A stretch of DNA of 13,960 nucleotides, taken from Desulfobacterales bacterium (GTDB lineage Bacteria; Desulfobacterota; Desulfobacteria; Desulfobacterales; Desulfosalsimonadaceae). A model generated the notes under the pieces. That model ran no database searches, had not been told where the DNA came from, and worked only from the letters and a program-made list of their open reading frames with translations. Made by a program: the position numbers and the translations under genes. Location: NCBI GenBank assembly GCA_018334855.1, contig JAGXLE010000009.1:1-13960 (forward strand), read 5' to 3'. Below are positions 5,447 to 13,835 of the stretch, piece after piece (position 1 is the first letter of the stretch; every line of letters starts with the position of its first letter).

Positions 5447-5800
5447 ATGCATGAACTGCCCGTAACAGAAAGCATCCTCAGCATTATTCTCAAGCATGCG
5501 GAAAAAAACCGTGTAAGCAGGGTCGTTTCAATAACCCTGCAGATCGGGGAGCTAAGCGACCTGGAAGACGAGTGGGTCCAGCACTACTTCGACTACCTGA
5601 GCAAAGACACGGCTGCAGCAGGAGCCAGGCTGAAAATTGAGCGCATACCCGTTATGGTAAAATGCGGCAACTGCGGGGAAACAACAGAAATCAGCAAGGA
5701 AGAGCTCGGCAGTATAAACTGCCCTCAGTGCGGTACAGAGGGCGATTTTTCACTTGTCTCCGGAAGGCAATACTACATAAAGGAAATGGAGGCAATATAA
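5447..5800 (+). CDS. hypA: Hydrogenase/nickel maturation metallochaperone HypA
   Basis: HypA delivers nickel to the active site of [NiFe] hydrogenases (and in some species urease), working with the GTPase HypB. The 117-residue length is standard. The start at 5447 gives MHEL, which is invariant in the family because H2, with the N-terminal amine, binds nickel; E3 is also conserved. The structural zinc site is complete: C73 and C76 (CGNC), C92 and C95 (CPQC). The ribosome binding site is weak; GAG lies about 13 bases upstream in an A-rich leader. The stop codon overlaps the hypB start by one base (TAATG), so the two are translationally coupled. No hydrogenase structural genes or other hyp genes are in the window. 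Confidence 0.95.
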   Translation: MHELPVTESILSIILKHAEKNRVSRVVSITLQIGELSDLEDEWVQHYFDYLSKDTAAAGARLKIERIPVMVKCGNCGETTEISKEELGSINCPQCGTEGDFSLVSGRQYYIKEMEAI

Positions 5801-6465
5801 TGGATGAAATCAAGCTTTTCGAGGTAAAAGAAGACATTCTTTCAGACAACGACGAGGCTGCCAGGCAATTAAGAGACAAGCTCCACAGGGACAAAACCTT
5901 TGTAATCAACCTCATGTCTTCGCCCGGCGCGGGAAAGACCACTGTGCTGCTAAAAACCATATCCGAACTAAAAGATGAATTAAAAATCGGGGTAATAGAG
6001 GCTGACATTGATTCGGTGGTTGACGCTGAAAAAATCAGAAATACAGGGATTCGCGCGGTTCAGCTGCGCACCGGGGGATTCTGCCACCTCGATGCTTCAA
6101 TGGTGAAAACAGGCCTGGACGGCATGGGTTCCGAGTCTTTTGACCTGGTTTTTGTTGAAAACGTGGGAAACCTGGTCTGCCCGGCGGAATTTGACACAGG
6201 CGCCATCAAAAACGTCATGATATTAAGCGTGCCCGAAGGTGACGACAAGCCCATGAAATATCCCCTGATGTTTACAAAATCTGATGTGCTGCTGATTAAT
6301 AAAATCGACATGATGGAACTTACAGACTTTGACACAAAAGCCCTGAAGCAGCGCGTAACTCAATTAAACCGGGACATGACAGTAATTGAAATTTCGGCCA
6401 AAACAGGCCTGGGCATTGATAAATGGGCGGACTGGATACGCAGCGCGGTCAGGGATTTTACTTGA
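5800..6465 (+). CDS. hypB: Hydrogenase nickel incorporation GTPase HypB
   Basis: HypB is a SIMIBI-class GTPase that drives nickel transfer to hydrogenase precursors. In this 221-residue protein the P-loop SPGAGKT is at 41-47, the metal-binding switch region has CHLDAS at 95-100 (C95, H96) and C127 in VGNLVCPAEFD, and the guanine-specificity motif NKID is at 167-170 with ISAKTGLG at 198-205. It lacks the N-terminal CxxCGC metal site and the histidine-rich stretch found in some HypB proteins, so it should bind metal only at the GTPase-domain site. Many family members read CHLDAH where this one has CHLDAS. GGAGG at 5788-5792 gives a good ribosome binding site, and the ATG overlaps the hypA stop by one base. 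Its own stop lies inside a TTGACA box that may start the next operon. Confidence 0.95.
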   Translation: MDEIKLFEVKEDILSDNDEAARQLRDKLHRDKTFVINLMSSPGAGKTTVLLKTISELKDELKIGVIEADIDSVVDAEKIRNTGIRAVQLRTGGFCHLDASMVKTGLDGMGSESFDLVFVENVGNLVCPAEFDTGAIKNVMILSVPEGDDKPMKYPLMFTKSDVLLINKIDMMELTDFDTKALKQRVTQLNRDMTVIEISAKTGLGIDKWADWIRSAVRDFT

Positions 6466-6593: not shown

Positions 6594-7310
6594 ATGGTGT
6601 ACGAAGAAGACAGCGAAAAAGAAGAAGGCACGGAACCTGAAAACGGATCCGAAGCTGAAATAAGCCTTCGGGTAGAGGATGAAGACGACAGCAATACGGG
6701 TTCCATGCCCGAAGATACGGCTTCAAACCAGCAACAGCCCGACTCAGCAGCAGAAAAAGACCAGATGCCTGCAGAGGGAAAAGACCTTTACTCCGAGATT
6801 AAAAAACTCAAGGACCAGATCCGGGAGCTTTCCGGCGAATTTGAAACCAAGCTCAAATACGACGAGCACAAAAACAAAATTATAGACGGGCTTCACAGGG
6901 AGTTGCAGGAATACCGTGAGGGCCTTATCCAGAAGCATTTTCACTCCATGATCACCGATGCCATCAAGATCATCGATGACATACGGAAATTAAAGGCCCA
7001 TTACGAAGACGAGCCTCCTACGGAAAATACTTTGCCCAGCCTCCTGAGTTTTCTCGAGGATATCGCCTCAGACATTGAAGAACTTTTTTCCTGGCAGGGG
7101 GTTTCTCCTTTCCGATGCGGAGCTGAACACTTTGACAATACCTGCCAGCGTGTTGTCAAAAAAATAGAAACAAAAGACCCGGAAGAAGACAAAAAGGTCG
7201 CGGGCAGCATCAGGCCGGGCTATGAATGGGACGGCAAGGTGCTCAGGCCTGAGATGGTTGCCGTTTATGTATACAACAATACATTAACCGAAGAAGGCGG
7301 CTCGCACTGA
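6594..7310 (+). CDS. Divergent GrpE-like nucleotide exchange factor
   Basis: This 238-residue protein has the architecture of GrpE, the factor that releases ADP from Hsp70. Residues 1-62 are an acidic, disordered tail rich in E, D, S and Q. Residues 63-135 form a long helix with coiled-coil character (LYSEIKKLKDQIRELSGEFETK). The end, about 170-228, matches the GrpE beta domain: FRCGAEHFDNTCQRVVKKI, then GYEWDGKVLRPEMVAVYVY, which parallels the family's GY-x-GxRVLRPAxVxV motif. The highly conserved FDP-x-H-x-AV of housekeeping GrpE is altered here to HFDNTCQRVV. The start at 6594 follows AGGGA at 6585-6589. The stop overlaps the start of the Hsp70-like gene (TGATG), so the two products are coupled and presumably partners. 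It is probably not the housekeeping grpE, so no symbol is given. Confidence 0.85.
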   Translation: MVYEEDSEKEEGTEPENGSEAEISLRVEDEDDSNTGSMPEDTASNQQQPDSAAEKDQMPAEGKDLYSEIKKLKDQIRELSGEFETKLKYDEHKNKIIDGLHRELQEYREGLIQKHFHSMITDAIKIIDDIRKLKAHYEDEPPTENTLPSLLSFLEDIASDIEELFSWQGVSPFRCGAEHFDNTCQRVVKKIETKDPEEDKKVAGSIRPGYEWDGKVLRPEMVAVYVYNNTLTEEGGSH

Positions 7311-8989
7311 TGGATAAAAATATCAAAAGAATCTACGGCATCGATCTGGGCACCACGTACTCATCAATTGCCTACGTGGATGAATACGGCAAGGCTGTAA
7401 TTATTCCGAATGCTGAAAATGAAAGGGTCACGCCTTCGGTTGTTTTCTTTGACGACAACAACATCGTGGTCGGAGAAGTGGCCAAAGAAAGCGCCAAACT
7501 CTACCCGAATGAGGTGGTCAGTTTTATCAAGCGATCCATGGGAGAGCCGAATTTCATCTTTGAATACGGCTCCGAACAATATCGTCCGGAAGAGATATCA
7601 TCTTATGTATTAAAAAAACTGGCCCAGGATGCACAACAACACCTGGGCGATAAAATAACAGACGTAGTTATTACCTGCCCGGCCTATTTCGGTATAAACG
7701 AACGCGAGGCCACCAGAAAGGCCGGAGAAATCGCGGGATTCAACGTGCGCCAGATCATAAACGAACCGACTGCCGCCGCCATCGCTTACGGCTCCCTTGA
7801 CACATCCAATGAAAAGACTGTGCTGGTATACGATCTGGGCGGAGGAACCTTTGACGTCACCATGATTGATATCCGCAGGGATTCCGTGGAAGTTATCTGC
7901 ACAGGCGGGGACCACAACCTGGGAGGCAAGGACTGGGACGATCGGATAGTGGGATACCTGGTGGAAAAATTCCAGGAAGAAACCGGTTCTGACGAAGATA
8001 TCCTCGATGATCCCGATACCTGGCAGGACCTGCAGCTCTCGGCAGAAAAAGCCAAAAAGATTCTCAGCCACAGGCCCAAAACCCCGGTATCGATCACTCA
8101 CGGGGGCCAGCGCGTGAAATTGATACTTGAAAGGGAAAAATTCGAGGAGCTTACAGAAGATTTACTTGAACGCACCGTGGATTTCACGCGGGAAATGATC
8201 CAGTCCGCCCGGGATAAAGAATTTAACGGGTTCGACGAAATTATCCTGGTGGGCGGAGCCACCAGAATGCCGCAGGTGGCCGAAAGGATTGAAAAAGAAT
8301 TTAACATGACGCCAAAGGTTTTCGATCCTGACGAAGCCGTGGCCAAGGGGGCTGCCATTTACGGCTGGAAGCTGGCCTTAAACGACGACCTGGTCCGACG
8401 GATCTCGGAAAAAACCAATAAGAAAATAGAACATCCTGAAAATCTTTCAGAAATGATTGAAAAAAGTGAAATCTCCGCAGAGGATTTCAAGACAGCGGCT
8501 CAGGAACTGGCAAATGATACCGGCTACACGCTGCCGTCCGTGGAAAACGCCATGCTGCGGGTCAAAAACGTTACCAGCAAAAGTTTCGGCGTAGTGGCAC
8601 ACAACCCCACAGACGAGGAGATCGTTTTTAACCTGGTAATTCGCAATACAGCCGTCCCGGTCAATGTAGAAAAGAAATTTTTCACAGCCGTTGAAAACCA
8701 GAAGACCGTGCTGATAAGGATCATGGAAAGCGAAACCAGCGATATCGAAATCCCGATAGAACAAGCCACGGAAATCAAGACCGCTATTTTGCATCTGCCG
8801 CCGAACCTGCCTGCGGATCTGCCCATTGAAATTACATTCGACTTAAATGATGAAGGGCAACTCCATATCACGGCGGTGGAAACTAGCGAGTCGAGACAGG
8901 TGCAGGTTGTTGTGGACACCGCCTCGGTAATAAGCGGAGAAGAACTGGAAAAAGCCAAGGAAAGATCACAGAGCCTGGTGGTGCATTGA
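7310..8989 (+). CDS. Hsp70-family chaperone ATPase lacking canonical linker and lid
   Basis: This 559-residue protein has a complete Hsp70 ATPase domain at about 1-355: phosphate loops IDLGTTYS (11-18) and DLGGGTFDVT (175-184), catalytic lysine K74 in FIKRSMG, the proline switch in CPAYF (123-127), NEPTAAAIAYG (151-161) and ILVGGATRMP (312-321). After GAAIYG (348-352) comes about 55 residues of extra helical sequence (354-410) before the beta-sandwich substrate domain. The hydrophobic linker of DnaK (DVLLLDVTPLSLG) is replaced by a degenerate MLRVKNVTSKSFG at 415-427. The beta domain (about 420-538) is recognisable and ends with only one short helix, so the alpha-helical lid of DnaK is missing; DnaK is about 640 residues. 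The start overlaps the GrpE-like stop. It probably acts with its neighbours on a restricted set of clients; ATPase activity is expected from the intact motifs. Confidence 0.92.
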   Translation: MDKNIKRIYGIDLGTTYSSIAYVDEYGKAVIIPNAENERVTPSVVFFDDNNIVVGEVAKESAKLYPNEVVSFIKRSMGEPNFIFEYGSEQYRPEEISSYVLKKLAQDAQQHLGDKITDVVITCPAYFGINEREATRKAGEIAGFNVRQIINEPTAAAIAYGSLDTSNEKTVLVYDLGGGTFDVTMIDIRRDSVEVICTGGDHNLGGKDWDDRIVGYLVEKFQEETGSDEDILDDPDTWQDLQLSAEKAKKILSHRPKTPVSITHGGQRVKLILEREKFEELTEDLLERTVDFTREMIQSARDKEFNGFDEIILVGGATRMPQVAERIEKEFNMTPKVFDPDEAVAKGAAIYGWKLALNDDLVRRISEKTNKKIEHPENLSEMIEKSEISAEDFKTAAQELANDTGYTLPSVENAMLRVKNVTSKSFGVVAHNPTDEEIVFNLVIRNTAVPVNVEKKFFTAVENQKTVLIRIMESETSDIEIPIEQATEIKTAILHLPPNLPADLPIEITFDLNDEGQLHITAVETSESRQVQVVVDTASVISGEELEKAKERSQSLVVH

Positions 8990-9125
8990 TTCCCCTTTTC
9001 TCCCGCAGACAGGAGCACTCCCGCTTAAATAAGCTTTCTGCATTTGGACGGGGACCCCGCTTGAAGGCTCCCGGATACGAGTACTGCATGTGCTCCTGCG
9101 AAAATGACTGAATATCGATAAAATT
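8990..9125 (+). repeat. Structured spacer between the Hsp70 and J-like genes
   Basis: Nine-base perfect arms CAGGAGCAC (9010-9018) and GTGCTCCTG (9090-9098) could form a long-range stem around a 71-base loop. Inside the loop are a short symmetrical element GCTTA-AA-TAAGC (9023-9034) and the G/C hairpin CGGG-GAC-CCCG (9049-9059). The stem ends 27 bases before the next start codon. No T-run follows, so it is not a terminator; it may tune expression of the downstream gene or mark an mRNA processing point. Confidence 0.4.
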
Positions 9126-11483
9126 ATGGAACGCGAAAATTTTTACCTCCTTCTCGAACTCCCCTGTGATCCGCCGGAGACAGATCCGGATGTAATCGAG
9201 AAAGCGATCACAAAAAAGCAGACGGAATGGAGCCGCCTGCGAAATCACCCCACCAAGGGCCTGCATGCCCAGAAATACATAAACATGATCCCGGAAATCC
9301 GCCGGGTTATGACAGATGACGCCCTGAGGGCAAAAGAAGCCGAGGCGGCCAGGGAGATCCTGGCAAAAGACAAAGAAAACAAGTATCCTGAAATCGATCG
9401 GCATATCGATATACTCATGGGCAAGGGCCACGTTACCCAGGAAGAAAAATCCAAGCTCGCCCGGGTCCACAGTCTTGACGAAAGTGAAATCCAGAACCGG
9501 ATCAATGCCAGGAAAAACGTCAAATACCACCGTATCGATCAGCAGATAACCCTTCGGATTGCCAAGGGATATCTAACAGAATCGGAAATCGGAAAAATCG
9601 CCAAGCGAAATTCCGTCAAGGTGGAAGAAGTCAGAAAACGGGTCAGATGCCCGATCCTCAAAACCGAAAAGGAAGACGAGGTCCCTCAGCCCAGGCAGAT
9701 CGATCGTTCCATTGAAAAAACCATCCGGGACAACCTGAAACTTCTAAACAAATCATCCCTGTATGATTTTCTCGGTCTGCCGGAAAGCGCAGACCTGAAA
9801 AGCATGCAGGATGCGGCCTCCAGAAAGAAAAAGGAGCTGGCATCCAGCGGCAAAAAAGATGCTGTAGCCACCGCGGCCAGCACGCTTGCCGGACACTGCG
9901 TCACCATATTTAAATCAGAACAGTCCCGCATAGCCTATGATATAAGCCTTGCCAGAACAAAGCTCTCGGAACTCGACTCAGACATCGACATTGCCGGAAT
10001 AAACGGCAGGCTCCGGCCCGAATACTTCGAAACCCTGGTAGGCAAAGCCATGGATTTCGGCATGGAAAGATCCGAAGCCGAAAAATATATAAAGGATTAC
10101 TGCCGCCGGAAAAAATGGACCGTGGAAACGGCTCCGGACAAAAGGCGCAAGTTATTTATCGGTGCAGCTGCAGCAGCCTGCGTTTTAATTGTTGTTGCAT
10201 CAGCAGGGGCCTATTTTTATATTTCCCACCAACACAGGATGCGGGAAACAGAATTTAACGAGTTAATGCAGCAGGTAAATGAGGAAAGAGACGCGCGGGC
10301 CAAAATAACTATGCTTCAGGGCTTTATAGAGAACCACACCTCCGGGGACGGCTACAGCCGCTACATTGACAGGGCCAGAGCCCGCCTTGATGAAATCCGC
10401 ACAAACATGGCCGAAGAAAATTACAAAAACATGGCAGCTGCTGTGGATAAGCTGGCTGAAAAAGGCAACTTCCGGGAGGCCATAACCGAATGCCGGCAAT
10501 ACCTTCAAAAAGACCCGCCCGGCCGATATGCTAAAAAGGCCGAGTCTATGATCACAGAGTTAGACAGGCAAATCGAAAGCCGGGATTTTGAGGAATTAAA
10601 GAATCTTATGATTCAGGGAGCGACTCCCGAAAAAATTGATGCAATCACCTCTTACTTAGAAAAATATCCGGACGGCGCTCACAGGGAAAAAGTTGAAAAG
10701 ATGCTCTCAGAAATCAGCGGCGAGTATTTCGTATACGTCAAAAACCAACTCGACTCCTGTGAAGCAGATGGCAAGTGGCAGCAATGCGCCAGCCTGTGCG
10801 AAAATTACATCAATCGCTATGACAACAGCTATGCAGACAAGCTTAAAATCCGCCTGGAAAAATACCGTGAAAAAATCAAACAAAACAAGATAATGGCCGC
10901 ACTGCAGCGCAAAGCAAATGATTTTGGAACCGACTATGACTCTGCCATACAGGTTTACGAGGACTACCTGTCAGCATATCCAAAGTCTGAGATAGCCGGG
11001 CGGGTTGAAAAAAAAATAAAGGAACTTGAAAAAAAGAAAAAGCAAAAAGCCATAGAAGCCTCCAAAACTCAATTCAGAAAGCTTCTTGAACAAACCGGGC
11101 AGAGATACTCAGAAAAAAGCGAAGGTGTTGTGACAGATTCAAAAACAGGCCTGATGTGGCAACTTCTCGATACCACCCTGACCAAGCCCGATGAATGCAT
11201 AACCTACGAAAAAGCCCGCCAGTATGTAGAGAACCTGTCCGCCGGGGGGTTTAATGACTGGCGTCTCCCGAAGGCGGAGGAACTGGCCGGAATTTATAAG
11301 AGCCCTCCCTACTTTCCTGCACTGGAAAATAAATGGTACTGGACAGTGGAAAGCTATTCCAGCTATTCAGACGGGCAGTGGCAAAAAATAGTTGACACGG
11401 TAAGCAGCGAGCACAGCACAAATTGGGAAGTAGAACGCAGGGACTCCAGGCAATGCGGTGCGGTCAGGGCCGTAAGAAAATAA
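9126..11483 (+). CDS. Single-pass membrane protein with degenerate J-like modules and a C-terminal DUF1566 domain
   Basis: This 785-residue protein has four visible parts. Residues 5-72 look like a J domain (NFYLLLEL, a charged helix, then HPT where active J proteins have HPD, then a third helix). Residues 87-126 and 134-173 are two copies of a helical repeat (ID..I...KG..T..E...LA). Residues 211-275 form a second J-like module (SLYDFLGLPESADL) with no HPD, followed by a third repeat near 287-322. One membrane helix lies at about 344-367, after basic KRRK, placing the N-terminus in the cytoplasm. Residues 370-655 are charged, TPR-like helices, and 665-785 match DUF1566/Lcl C-terminal (TGLMWQ, GGFNDWRLPKAEEL, YWT, CGAVRAVRK). 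There is no Shine-Dalgarno before ATG 9126; an in-frame stop at 9105 excludes longer ATG starts. It is probably the membrane partner of the Hsp70. Confidence 0.8.
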   Translation: MERENFYLLLELPCDPPETDPDVIEKAITKKQTEWSRLRNHPTKGLHAQKYINMIPEIRRVMTDDALRAKEAEAAREILAKDKENKYPEIDRHIDILMGKGHVTQEEKSKLARVHSLDESEIQNRINARKNVKYHRIDQQITLRIAKGYLTESEIGKIAKRNSVKVEEVRKRVRCPILKTEKEDEVPQPRQIDRSIEKTIRDNLKLLNKSSLYDFLGLPESADLKSMQDAASRKKKELASSGKKDAVATAASTLAGHCVTIFKSEQSRIAYDISLARTKLSELDSDIDIAGINGRLRPEYFETLVGKAMDFGMERSEAEKYIKDYCRRKKWTVETAPDKRRKLFIGAAAAACVLIVVASAGAYFYISHQHRMRETEFNELMQQVNEERDARAKITMLQGFIENHTSGDGYSRYIDRARARLDEIRTNMAEENYKNMAAAVDKLAEKGNFREAITECRQYLQKDPPGRYAKKAESMITELDRQIESRDFEELKNLMIQGATPEKIDAITSYLEKYPDGAHREKVEKMLSEISGEYFVYVKNQLDSCEADGKWQQCASLCENYINRYDNSYADKLKIRLEKYREKIKQNKIMAALQRKANDFGTDYDSAIQVYEDYLSAYPKSEIAGRVEKKIKELEKKKKQKAIEASKTQFRKLLEQTGQRYSEKSEGVVTDSKTGLMWQLLDTTLTKPDECITYEKARQYVENLSAGGFNDWRLPKAEELAGIYKSPPYFPALENKWYWTVESYSSYSDGQWQKIVDTVSSEHSTNWEVERRDSRQCGAVRAVRK

Positions 11484-11606: not shown

Positions 11607-11682
11607 GGGGCTGTAGCTCAGTCGGGAGAGCGCATGACTGGCAGTCATGAGGCCAGGGGTTCGAATCCCCTCAGCTCCACCA
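11607..11682 (+). tRNA. tRNA-Ala (anticodon GGC)
   Basis: The 76-base cloverleaf includes an encoded 3' CCA. The acceptor stem pairs GGGGCTG (11607-11613) with CAGCTCC (11672-11678) and contains the G3-U70 wobble that identifies alanine tRNA; the discriminator base is A (11679). The anticodon stem is CATGA / TCATG with loop CTGGCAG, giving anticodon GGC at 11640-11642, which reads GCC and GCU codons. The T arm has the standard GGTTCGAATCC core. It is transcribed alone, between its own promoter and terminator. Confidence 0.97.
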
Positions 11683-11927: not shown

Positions 11928-13835
11928 ATGCTCAGCTCGATGCGCAAAAGCGCCGGTTCGTGGATGATCAAGATTCTTCTGGGACTTATAGTGGTTGCCT
12001 TTGTCTTTATGGGCGCCGGCTCATTTTACTCCCGCCGGGGGGCCGAAGTGGCAAGGGTCAACGGAGAGCCCATAAGCGTTAAAGAATACCAGCAAACCTA
12101 TCACAATATTATACGCAACATGGAACAACGCTTCGGCGGCCAGATAGACCAGGAGATGATCGAAAGCCTTAACATCAGGCAGCAGGCGCTGGACCGGCTG
12201 ATCGAAAAGCACCTGCTGATCCAGGTTGCGAAAAAAAATAATATCACCGTGCCGGACCAAATTCTTGCCAGCTCAATAACCGGAATTTCTGCCTTTCAAA
12301 ACCAGGGCCGCTTTGACCCGCAACTCTACAGGCGCGTGCTGAATCGTAACAATCTGTCGCCGGAAAGCTTTGAATCCTTGCAGAAACAGGCCATAATCAC
12401 TTCCGTTATCAGAAATTCAGTAGGAAACTCCTTACCGGTGTCAGAATCCGAAGCCAGGGCATGGTATGACTGGAAAAACACAAAGGTAAAGATCAACTAT
12501 GCGCAGTTTGCCGCAAAGGATTTTGAAAATGTCGAGGTGACAAAAAATGAAATTCAGCAGTATTTTGAAAAAAACAGGGAAGACTACAAAACAGAGCCTA
12601 AAATAAAGGCCCGCTACGTCCGTTTTACGCCGCAAAATTACCTGAGCAGGGTTGAGGTGTCAGAAGAGGAAATAAAAAACTATTATCAGGCCCACCAGTC
12701 TGAATTTACATCCACCGAAACGGTGGAAGCCAGACACATTCTGCTGAAAGTCCCGGAAAATGCCGATAAAAACACCGAAGAACAGGTCCGCAAAAAAGCG
12801 CTTGAAATAATGGAGAGGGCCAGGTCGGGCCGCGATTTTTCCGCACTTGCAGAAAAATTTTCAGAGGGGCCGTCGGCCTCGGAGGGAGGATATCTCGGAA
12901 CCCTGGAGAAAGGCGACGCTGTCAAGCCGTTTTCAGAAAAGGCCTTTTCCATGAAGGCGGGGGAAATCAGCGAGCCCGTGCGCACCAGGTTCGGATGGCA
13001 CGTCATCAAGGTAGAAAAACACCGGCAGGCTTCAGCAAAACCCCTGGAAAAAGTAAAAGAAAAAATCCGGGAAAAACTGGCGCTCCAAAAAGCTGACAAC
13101 ATTGCCTACGAAGAAGCATATTCAATGTATAACATTTCGTTTGGCGGAGAAGACCTGGTAAAAAACACCAGGGATCTCGATATAGATCTTGAAACAACCG
13201 GATTTTTCACTCAAAACCGGGGCCCTTCGGGCATTGAAAACTCCGCGGGCTTTGCCGAAACCGCGTTTTCTATTCCGCTCATGGAAATCAGCGGGGTAAA
13301 AAATATAGGAAATTCCTACTTTCTAATCCAGCCCATCGAAAAACAGGAGCCGCATATCCCGGAACTTTCCTCCATAATTGAAAAAGTCCGGGCAGATGCA
13401 AGGCGTGAAAAGCAAAAACAGGCAGCGAAAAAGGCGGCCAAAAATTTACTGGAAAAAATTTCGGCAGACGGCAGCCTTACAGAAGCAGCCGGCAAATCCG
13501 GCATTGAAACCGGTACAACCGATTTTTTCAAGCGGGGAGAGCCCGTCCCGGATATCGGGCAGAGCCGGCAGATAGCCTCTGCGGCATTTTCGCTTAGCAG
13601 CAGCAATCCGGTATCAGACTCGGTAATTGCAAGGGAAGACAGTTTTTACGTAATAGGCCTGCAGGCGCGCAAAGCCCCGAGCGATGAAGGTTTTCAGGCC
13701 GAAAAAAAGACGGTCATGGCCAGGCTGGAAGCCCGGAAGCACAGGCAGGCTGTAAACAGATGGCTGACAGCTCTCAGGCAGTCCAGCAATATAGAAATAT
13801 CAGATCAATTTTCGAATTTGTCCGGATCAGGATAA
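11928..13835 (+). CDS. ppiD: PpiD/SurA-type membrane-anchored peptidyl-prolyl isomerase chaperone
   Basis: PpiD is an inner-membrane-anchored periplasmic chaperone that meets proteins leaving the Sec translocon. The 635-residue length matches the family (about 620). The N-terminus MLSSMRKSAGSWMIKILLGLI is a short cytoplasmic tail, with one membrane helix at about 13-33. Residues 38-165 form a SurA-N-like chaperone region (ARVNGEPISVKEYQQTY). One parvulin domain spans about 266-363 (EARHILLKV, DFSALAEKFSEGPSASEGGYLG, FGWHVIKVE); it keeps the parvulin signature motifs, whereas the E. coli PpiD parvulin domain is reported to be inactive, so activity is possible. The remaining C-terminal half is a second, degenerate chaperone lobe. 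AGAGGT at 11915-11920 supports the start at 11928. The following gene begins one base after its stop, suggesting an operon. The exact orthology to E. coli ppiD is by architecture. Confidence 0.9.
   Translation: MLSSMRKSAGSWMIKILLGLIVVAFVFMGAGSFYSRRGAEVARVNGEPISVKEYQQTYHNIIRNMEQRFGGQIDQEMIESLNIRQQALDRLIEKHLLIQVAKKNNITVPDQILASSITGISAFQNQGRFDPQLYRRVLNRNNLSPESFESLQKQAIITSVIRNSVGNSLPVSESEARAWYDWKNTKVKINYAQFAAKDFENVEVTKNEIQQYFEKNREDYKTEPKIKARYVRFTPQNYLSRVEVSEEEIKNYYQAHQSEFTSTETVEARHILLKVPENADKNTEEQVRKKALEIMERARSGRDFSALAEKFSEGPSASEGGYLGTLEKGDAVKPFSEKAFSMKAGEISEPVRTRFGWHVIKVEKHRQASAKPLEKVKEKIREKLALQKADNIAYEEAYSMYNISFGGEDLVKNTRDLDIDLETTGFFTQNRGPSGIENSAGFAETAFSIPLMEISGVKNIGNSYFLIQPIEKQEPHIPELSSIIEKVRADARREKQKQAAKKAAKNLLEKISADGSLTEAAGKSGIETGTTDFFKRGEPVPDIGQSRQIASAAFSLSSSNPVSDSVIAREDSFYVIGLQARKAPSDEGFQAEKKTVMARLEARKHRQAVNRWLTALRQSSNIEISDQFSNLSGSG

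Follow-up and report, generated by a model that had tools for sequence, protein, structure and literature searches.

A 13,960-nucleotide contig of a Desulfobacterales metagenome-assembled genome (family Desulfosalsimonadaceae; GenBank accession no. JAGXLE010000009.1; here, the window) carries a same-strand cluster of three genes encoding a GrpE-like protein (238 amino acids), an Hsp70-like protein (559 amino acids), and a membrane-spanning J-like protein that ends in a DUF1566 domain (785 amino acids). Two residues that meet at the contact between J proteins and Hsp70, the Asp of the HPD motif and its Arg partner (Arg167 in DnaK), are absent from this cluster and from its relatives. The whole family has changed at exactly these two positions, in both partners, with the ATPase site intact, and we regard this paired absence as the surprising part of the finding. 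On balance, we lean toward the view that the cluster is a second, dedicated Hsp70 switch that senses the cell envelope, is insulated from the housekeeping chaperones by a rewired J docking contact, and stems from the chaperone core of the GAP1-N2 GTPase conflict systems.

The window spans contig C205 in full; the genome, 62% complete, totals 1.63 Mb in 287 contigs. All three genes lie on the forward strand. The GrpE-like and Hsp70-like open reading frames (positions 6594 to 7310 and 7310 to 8989) share one base (tgATG, position 7310), just as the first-pass annotation of the sequence had described, and the J-like frame (9126 to 11483) starts 136 bp beyond the Hsp70-like one. Pfam recognizes a GrpE domain in the first product (53.1 bits; cut-off, 25.8), HSP70 in the second (374.6 bits; cut-off, 20.6), and Lcl_C/DUF1566 in the third (54.3 bits; cut-off, 34.9). 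Chance open reading frames are ruled out by these matches and by 241 protein relatives of the J-like protein. None of the three proteins reaches a housekeeping NCBIfam equivalog cut-off (the best GrpE model gives 40.9 of the 194 bits needed, and DnaK gives 384.3 of 648), which bears out the claim that each gene departs from its housekeeping relative. A separate full dnaK (901 bits) is found on another contig (C20) of the same genome, together with grpE, and all six DnaJ-domain matches in the genome (one below cut-off) carry HPD. The cluster Hsp70 as the only dnaK of the genome is thereby ruled out; the separate dnaK and grpE, along with the conservation of the cluster as a unit (see below), uphold the earlier proposal of a second, dedicated Hsp70 machine.

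On the J side, the position of the HPD motif in the window protein reads HPTK (9246 to 9257), with His and Pro kept and Asp replaced. Among the best 120 of the 241 relatives, 112 were aligned (P0004, P0057, P0080, P0082, P0084, P0086, P0088, and P0096 were left out), and all 112 have HP followed by T, S, I, or K, never HPD, the His and Pro being invariant. Likewise, HPD occurs in none of the 76 rows of another alignment (one row being the second half of a split gene). On the Hsp70 side, we compared 62 Hsp70s of at least 550 bits, four of them partial (384 to 501 amino acids), with Escherichia coli DnaK. The place of DnaK Arg167 is occupied by Gln in 48 and by His in 13, and the single gap belongs to a partial sequence (L036), so that all 61 scorable rows are without Arg; in the window the residue is Gln148 (codon at 7751 to 7753). 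At the 61 loci where both motifs are readable, every J-like protein has HPT, HPS, or HPQ and every Hsp70 has Gln or His. Seven DnaKs examined as controls, from the window genome, from two carriers of the cluster (G572 and G573), and from four genomes with a GTPase-type J protein, keep Arg167. The HPD motif and its Arg are regarded as central to the coupling of J proteins and Hsp70. A laboratory suppressor pair is a main piece of genetic evidence for their contact: DnaK R167H suppresses the defect of DnaJ D35N (PMC5519331 and PMC7289447, both of which cite Suh et al. 1998). Arg167, linker residue Asp393, and Asp481 of DnaK form one network (PMC7289447). Thus, the family carries changes, fixed, on both sides of the R167H/D35N pair. 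Because R167H is a known suppressor of D35N, the J-like protein and its Hsp70 resemble a naturally compensated pair.

The Hsp70-like protein has a complete ATPase domain, a helical insert, an altered linker, a beta substrate domain, and a one-helix remnant of the lid. DnaK residues D8, T11, K70, E171, D194, G196, G197, T199, and D201 are kept across the 62 Hsp70s, apart from gaps in partial rows and one Lys at position 171, and the equivalents of P143 and R151 are likewise kept, gaps in partial rows aside. The insert, which is absent from DnaK, spans about residues 355 to 412 (8372 to 8545) between ATPase domain and linker and falls within modeled helices (343 to 412). A strand containing Lys or Arg (residues 417 to 421; 8558 to 8572) replaces the VLLLD linker of DnaK in both the alignments and the model: DnaK position 390 is Lys or Arg in 45 of the 62 sequences, position 392 in 58, and position 393 is Asn in 43 and Asp in 19. 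At the place of Asp481, 59 of 62 have Glu. In the AlphaFold2 model (predicted local distance difference test [pLDDT] score, 86), most of the DnaK lid is missing. Foldseek matches of this model are DnaK/Hsp70 proteins, with a template modeling score (query) of 0.77 to J-bound DnaK (5nro_A). Because this Hsp70 has neither the matching Arg nor the hydrophobic linker and little of the alpha-helical lid, the textbook DnaK-DnaJ cycle that the first-pass annotation had invoked cannot simply be assumed for the cluster.

The J-like protein appears to be built from two J-like domains, a transmembrane segment, a helical stalk, and a C-terminal DUF1566 domain (model pLDDT, 87; predicted template modeling score, 0.45). 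Because Foldseek on the whole 785-residue model gave no match at an E value of ≤0.001, the domain statements rest on VIA-align and extend to the families listed for it. The first J-like domain (residues 1 to 80; 9126 to 9365) is the most conserved region of the protein, with a mean pairwise column identity of 0.63 over the 112 rows. For the second (residues 205 to 290; 9738 to 9995), which also is without HPD, J domains make up 11 of the 24 PDB profile matches, which are sub-threshold; these 11 start at profile positions 205 to 210, the best with an E value of 0.13. The fold gives some support to the label J-like and the sequence does so weakly; plain J-domain membership was not demonstrated by sequence. 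The view that the trio covers all roles of an Hsp70 cycle stands as regards a GrpE, an Hsp70, and a J-like protein; the last, with two J-like units and no HPD, is not a normal J protein. Between the two domains, the motif ID(R/Q)(H/Q)I-x5-KG is repeated (residues 90 to 101 and 137 to 148 in the window), and some relatives have a longer spacer there. The predicted transmembrane segment (residues 343 to 361; 10152 to 10208) has seven Lys or Arg in the 15 residues before it and two after it, which places the N terminus in the cytoplasm by the positive-inside rule; of 61 proteins with such a segment, the window protein included, 57 favor this orientation and 4 tie. The predicted topology agrees with the suggested tether to the inner membrane with DUF1566 on its far side, where the domain may, as also suggested, sense or receive a signal. 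On that side, a TPR/BamD-like helical region (about residues 427 to 588; 10404 to 10889) is seen by VIA-align, with the BamD and YbgF models below cut-off, and is followed by the DUF1566/Lcl_C domain (residues 658 to 785; 11097 to 11480), for which the Pfam score and VIA-align point to a C-type-lectin-like fold.

The three genes behave as a unit. The 241 relatives were obtained with residues 1 to 330 of the J-like protein as query among 7,995 candidates scored, and nearly all of the best 120 are about 780 amino acids long with DUF1566. Named genomes yielded 74 loci. The neighborhood check that had been proposed finds an Hsp70 gene on the same strand and within 1.5 kb upstream of the J-like gene in 66 of these (61 of window type). 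Of the other eight, two have no room on the contig and six have no such gene (L063, L073, L077, L080, L085, and L086); in L085 an Hsp70 gene lies on the opposite strand, and in L063 and L086 the J gene stands alone, but a GrpE-Hsp70 pair (65% identity) exists elsewhere in the same genome. Of the 66 linked loci, 54 have GrpE ahead of Hsp70, 5 have no contig room for it, and in 7 it was not detected. Across 192 genomes of the order (taken to be the same 192 in the J, Hsp70, and GAP1-N2 counts), the J profile (E ≤ 1e-10) and Hsp70 (E ≤ 1e-130) each occur in 48, and both occur together in 46. The two J-only and two Hsp70-only genomes can be explained by contig ends or a split gene: a partial Hsp70 lies beside J at a contig end in G519, the contig coordinates of G535 are those of L059, where Hsp70 is split into two open reading frames, 525 bases of contig remain past Hsp70 in G422, and the contig stops inside Hsp70 in G458.

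All 10 sampled genomes of the window's own family are positive. The J N terminus is matched in 8 of 394 genomes of the window's phylum, all 8 within its order, and in 2 of 299 and 3 of 201 genomes (centers included) in the phyla of two more distant loci, L079 (one match weak, E = 1e-8) and L082, respectively. Named hosts other than metagenome-assembled genomes include Desulfatibacillum alkenivorans DSM 16219 (L040) and Desulfonema magnum 4be13 (L052). One genome, G525, has seven window-type Hsp70 matches, one of them beside its J gene. There, two Hsp70 genes are each followed by a gene for a PilZ-type protein (L151, 8449 to 13896; one above and one below the Pfam cut-off), and another lies just before genes whose starts read, unscored, as CheA- and CheW-like (L153, 6934 to 11855); the J-like gene was not found in five fetched stretches of this genome, which include these two and L155 (7680 to 10747).

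The closest described relatives belong to the GAP1-N2 GTPase conflict systems. Kaur et al. (2020; PMC7159879) describe for them a "second theme" in which an HSP70 gene and a GrpE gene, joined in a subset by another gene of the HSP70 type, occur with an FNIII protein that as a rule carries a fused DnaJ domain or TPRs; HPD is not mentioned in the portion of that text considered. A search of the open-access literature for this gene composition or for HPD loss with Arg loss gave no description beyond that one. The first-pass annotation, which knew of no described system of this composition, is to be amended in that a relative with the HSP70/GrpE/DnaJ theme has been described (PMC7159879); here the GTPase and GAP1 genes were not found and the C terminus is different.

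Six J-like proteins outside the main set (L074, L075, L079, L080, L082, and L087) have the J N terminus followed by four CxxC pairs and no transmembrane segment; one of them scores above the cut-off for the Pfam double zinc ribbon, the other five scoring below it. A DO-GTPase-like gene follows in five of the six (all but L082, at a contig end), below the Pfam cut-off in the four loci scored, and GAP1-N2 follows in L075 (136 bits). The gene order is GTPase-GrpE-Hsp70a-Hsp70b-J-GTPase-GAP1-N2 in L142 and GrpE-Hsp70a-Hsp70b-J-GAP1-N2 in L140 and L141. HPD is absent in ten GTPase/GAP1-type J proteins from such loci and in 43 database relatives of the L079 J protein, two of which lack that region. 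Arg167 is absent in all nine Hsp70a proteins of these loci, two of which (L075 and L085) are also among the 62 aligned. A GAP1-N2-like gene lies beside five of the nine (L075, L140, L141, L142, and L147) and a DO-GTPase-like gene beside two (L079 and L087); L085 and L146, with neither gene beside them, are labeled by similarity. At the same place, Hsp70b has Arg in three and Lys in four of nine. The second Hsp70 of L075 (1431 to 3482) and that of L141 (9049 to 11088) are fused to a C-terminal von Willebrand factor A domain (Pfam VWA, 59 and 67 bits), and a stretch of a Methanomassiliicoccaceae archaeon (L087, 7959 to 15862) encodes, one after another, an Hsp70, a strongly diverged J-like protein, a DO-GTPase-like protein, and another Hsp70.

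In the window cluster and in these loci alike, an Hsp70 is clustered with a GrpE of its own and with a J-like protein, and the J N termini align. They differ in that the GAP1-N2 loci have DO-GTPase-like and/or GAP1-N2 genes and often a second Hsp70, and their J proteins have zinc-ribbon cysteine pairs after the J part and no transmembrane segment, whereas the window J-like protein has a TPR-like region and a transmembrane/DUF1566 end, with no FNIII or zinc ribbon found by Pfam. Neither DO-GTPase nor GAP1 is among the Pfam matches of 10 scanned window genes and the PpiD-like one (see below), and GAP1-N2 was not found in the source genome, at its 62% completeness. In the order, GAP1-N2 occurs in 5 of 192 genomes, 2 of which are among the 48 J carriers. 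No window-type Hsp70 or J gene is present in L143, L144, and L145, which are GAP1-N2 stretches from the window's phylum. One genome (GMC2 bin) carries both kinds of locus (L056 and L075).

In a quick tree of 46 Hsp70s, with DnaK as outgroup, some long branches, and support from the Shimodaira-Hasegawa-like approximate likelihood ratio test alone, 19 window-type rows form one clade (support, 99) that adjoins the L075 Hsp70a and two Thiotrichaceae Hsp70a sequences (86 for the join). This clade lies inside a group with all nine Hsp70a sequences (97; inner forks, 86 to 94), DnaK forming a separate group (100), and an unlinked copy (L150) falls outside the window-type clade. The nesting of the window-type clade among the Hsp70a sequences has moderate support in this sequence tree. 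We infer from it that the window module descends from a conflict-system core that lost the GTPase and GAP1 and gained the transmembrane segment, stalk, and DUF1566, a direction of descent that depends on DnaK being taken as the root.

If the envelope-sensing switch is the right explanation, the cluster would form an Hsp70 machine that shares no parts with DnaK, DnaJ, and GrpE. Its J-like protein would sit in the inner membrane. A ligand from the envelope or from outside the cell may be bound by the TPR stalk and lectin-like DUF1566 head in the periplasm, and the tandem J-like domains in the cytoplasm would engage the cognate Hsp70. In this docking contact, HP-T/S of the J-like protein and Gln or His of the Hsp70 would replace the Asp-Arg pair, and because of this rewiring the machine would be kept apart from the housekeeping set. 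The Hsp70 presumably hydrolyzes ATP and would be reset by its cognate GrpE; with most of the lid lost, clients may be held loosely or cycled fast. The Hsp70-GrpE-J core of the GAP1-N2 systems, once rid of GTPase and GAP1, would then have become fixed in some Desulfobacterales lineages. A more specific form of this explanation, which we put forward only tentatively, is a transmembrane Hsp70 receptor: ligand binding by the periplasmic lectin-like domain would be converted into cytoplasmic Hsp70 cycles through tandem J-like domains without the HPD Asp, acting on an Hsp70 without the matching Arg. The chaperone pair, naturally compensated and therefore insulated, would have come from GTPase conflict systems and later been fixed as an envelope-sensing module.

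There are other plausible explanations. The J-like protein may be a pseudo-J tether that gives no ATPase stimulation and whose sole role is to anchor the Hsp70 at the membrane or to inhibit it there, stimulation coming from another factor or a client; the J-like protein Pam16, which is without HPD, offers a comparison. The missing HPD Asp in both J-like domains speaks for such a tether, as do the changes at the Arg and in the linker, which in DnaK belong to a network required for stimulation by J proteins (PMC7289447). However, all 112 aligned relatives keep the HP dipeptide and no region of the protein is better conserved than the first J-like domain, which is beyond the need of a mere anchor, and DnaK P143 and R151 are kept; we consider a pure tether possible but rather improbable. 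That the residue changes are neutral drift in an ordinary second DnaK set for folding or export of envelope proteins, with the J-like protein merely bringing Hsp70 to the membrane, seems to us very improbable. The DnaK-like fold, the intact ATPase site, and the BamD/TPR-like stalk would fit such a set. So would an Arg at DnaK position 166 in 59 of 61 rows, which weighs against a rewired contact because the Arg may simply have shifted by one place; the GTPase/GAP1-type loci L079, L141, L142, and L087 lack Arg at both 166 and 167, position 166 being Lys in L141. Yet wherever both partners could be scored (61 loci), and in the GTPase/GAP1-type relatives too, a change in one goes with a change in the other; the housekeeping genes checked keep Arg and HPD, and neutrality is difficult to argue for a changed linker and a lost lid.

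It is also conceivable that the cluster still is a conflict system, that is, an anti-invader module of the GAP1-N2 kind in which a membrane sensor has taken the place of the FNIII and GTPase parts. Its Hsp70, GrpE, and J-like parts are common to the GTPase/GAP1-type loci, and among the genes targeted by diversity-generating retroelements, DUF1566 is reported to be the most frequent Pfam domain (PMC6642488). Conflict systems, however, are said by Kaur et al. (PMC7159879) to be marked by high lateral transfer and presence/absence differences, whereas the cluster is present in all 10 sampled genomes of its own family and is preceded by hypA, hypB, or both in 21 of 74 loci (matches over 60 bits). 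Furthermore, its DUF1566 region is conserved (mean identity, 0.50; 8 invariant columns over 112 rows) and not hypervariable, and 46 of the 48 carriers have no GAP1-N2. A present role in conflict is unlikely in our view.

In the mitochondrial import motor, Hsp70 is likewise brought to a membrane by a J protein and a J-like protein located there, Pam18 and Pam16, one of which is without HPD; in the cluster, two J-like domains occur in one polypeptide, both are without HPD, and the Hsp70 side is changed too. With housekeeping DnaK-DnaJ-GrpE, the cluster shares the three roles, the ATPase residues, the GrpE domain, and the overall DnaK-like model, and it differs in HPD, Arg167, VLLLD, the lid, and the membrane location of the J-like protein, in a genome that has the housekeeping set as well. 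Legionella Lcl has a C-terminal domain of the same DUF1566 family and C-type-lectin-like fold but is exported and surface bound with a collagen stalk (PMC11162425), whereas DUF1566 here is part of a chaperone-docking membrane protein. The CoCoNuT Cnu(C)D proteins are likewise Hsp70-like proteins recruited into conflict systems; their ATPase motifs are said to be degenerate, with DnaJ and GrpE unmentioned in the portion of the main text considered (PMC11090510), in contrast to the intact ATPase site here.

The remaining scanned genes of the window encode a response regulator, TauE, FtsH, HypA, HypB, a SurA/PpiD-like protein, and two proteins without Pfam match. hypA and hypB lie directly upstream of the cluster (5447 to 6465); because neither was seen in other clades, a link to hydrogenase was discarded as a functional clue. 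A tRNA-Ala (GGC) gene (11607 to 11682) is found 3' of the J-like gene and is followed by the SurA/PpiD-like peptidyl-prolyl isomerase gene (11928 to 13835). In 27 of 74 loci (37 copies in total; e.g., L019, 12511 to 13569), and not in the window, the J-like gene is closely followed by a conserved convergent gene of no known family, on the opposite strand, for which two members scanned gave no Pfam match. A DUF4388-type protein (one member checked by Pfam) is encoded near the cluster in 12 loci (L076, 2141 to 4090, and 11 others), variously upstream or downstream.

Some sulfate reducers thus have a second Hsp70 set beside the normal one, with the hallmark contact residue gone from both sides of the interface, and they offer a natural test of how Hsp70 communicates with its partners: whether the salt bridge is indispensable for coupling, and by what means two Hsp70 machines are kept separate in one cell. 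Our findings also tie the predicted chaperone core of a conflict system to a stable membrane module in sulfate reducers.

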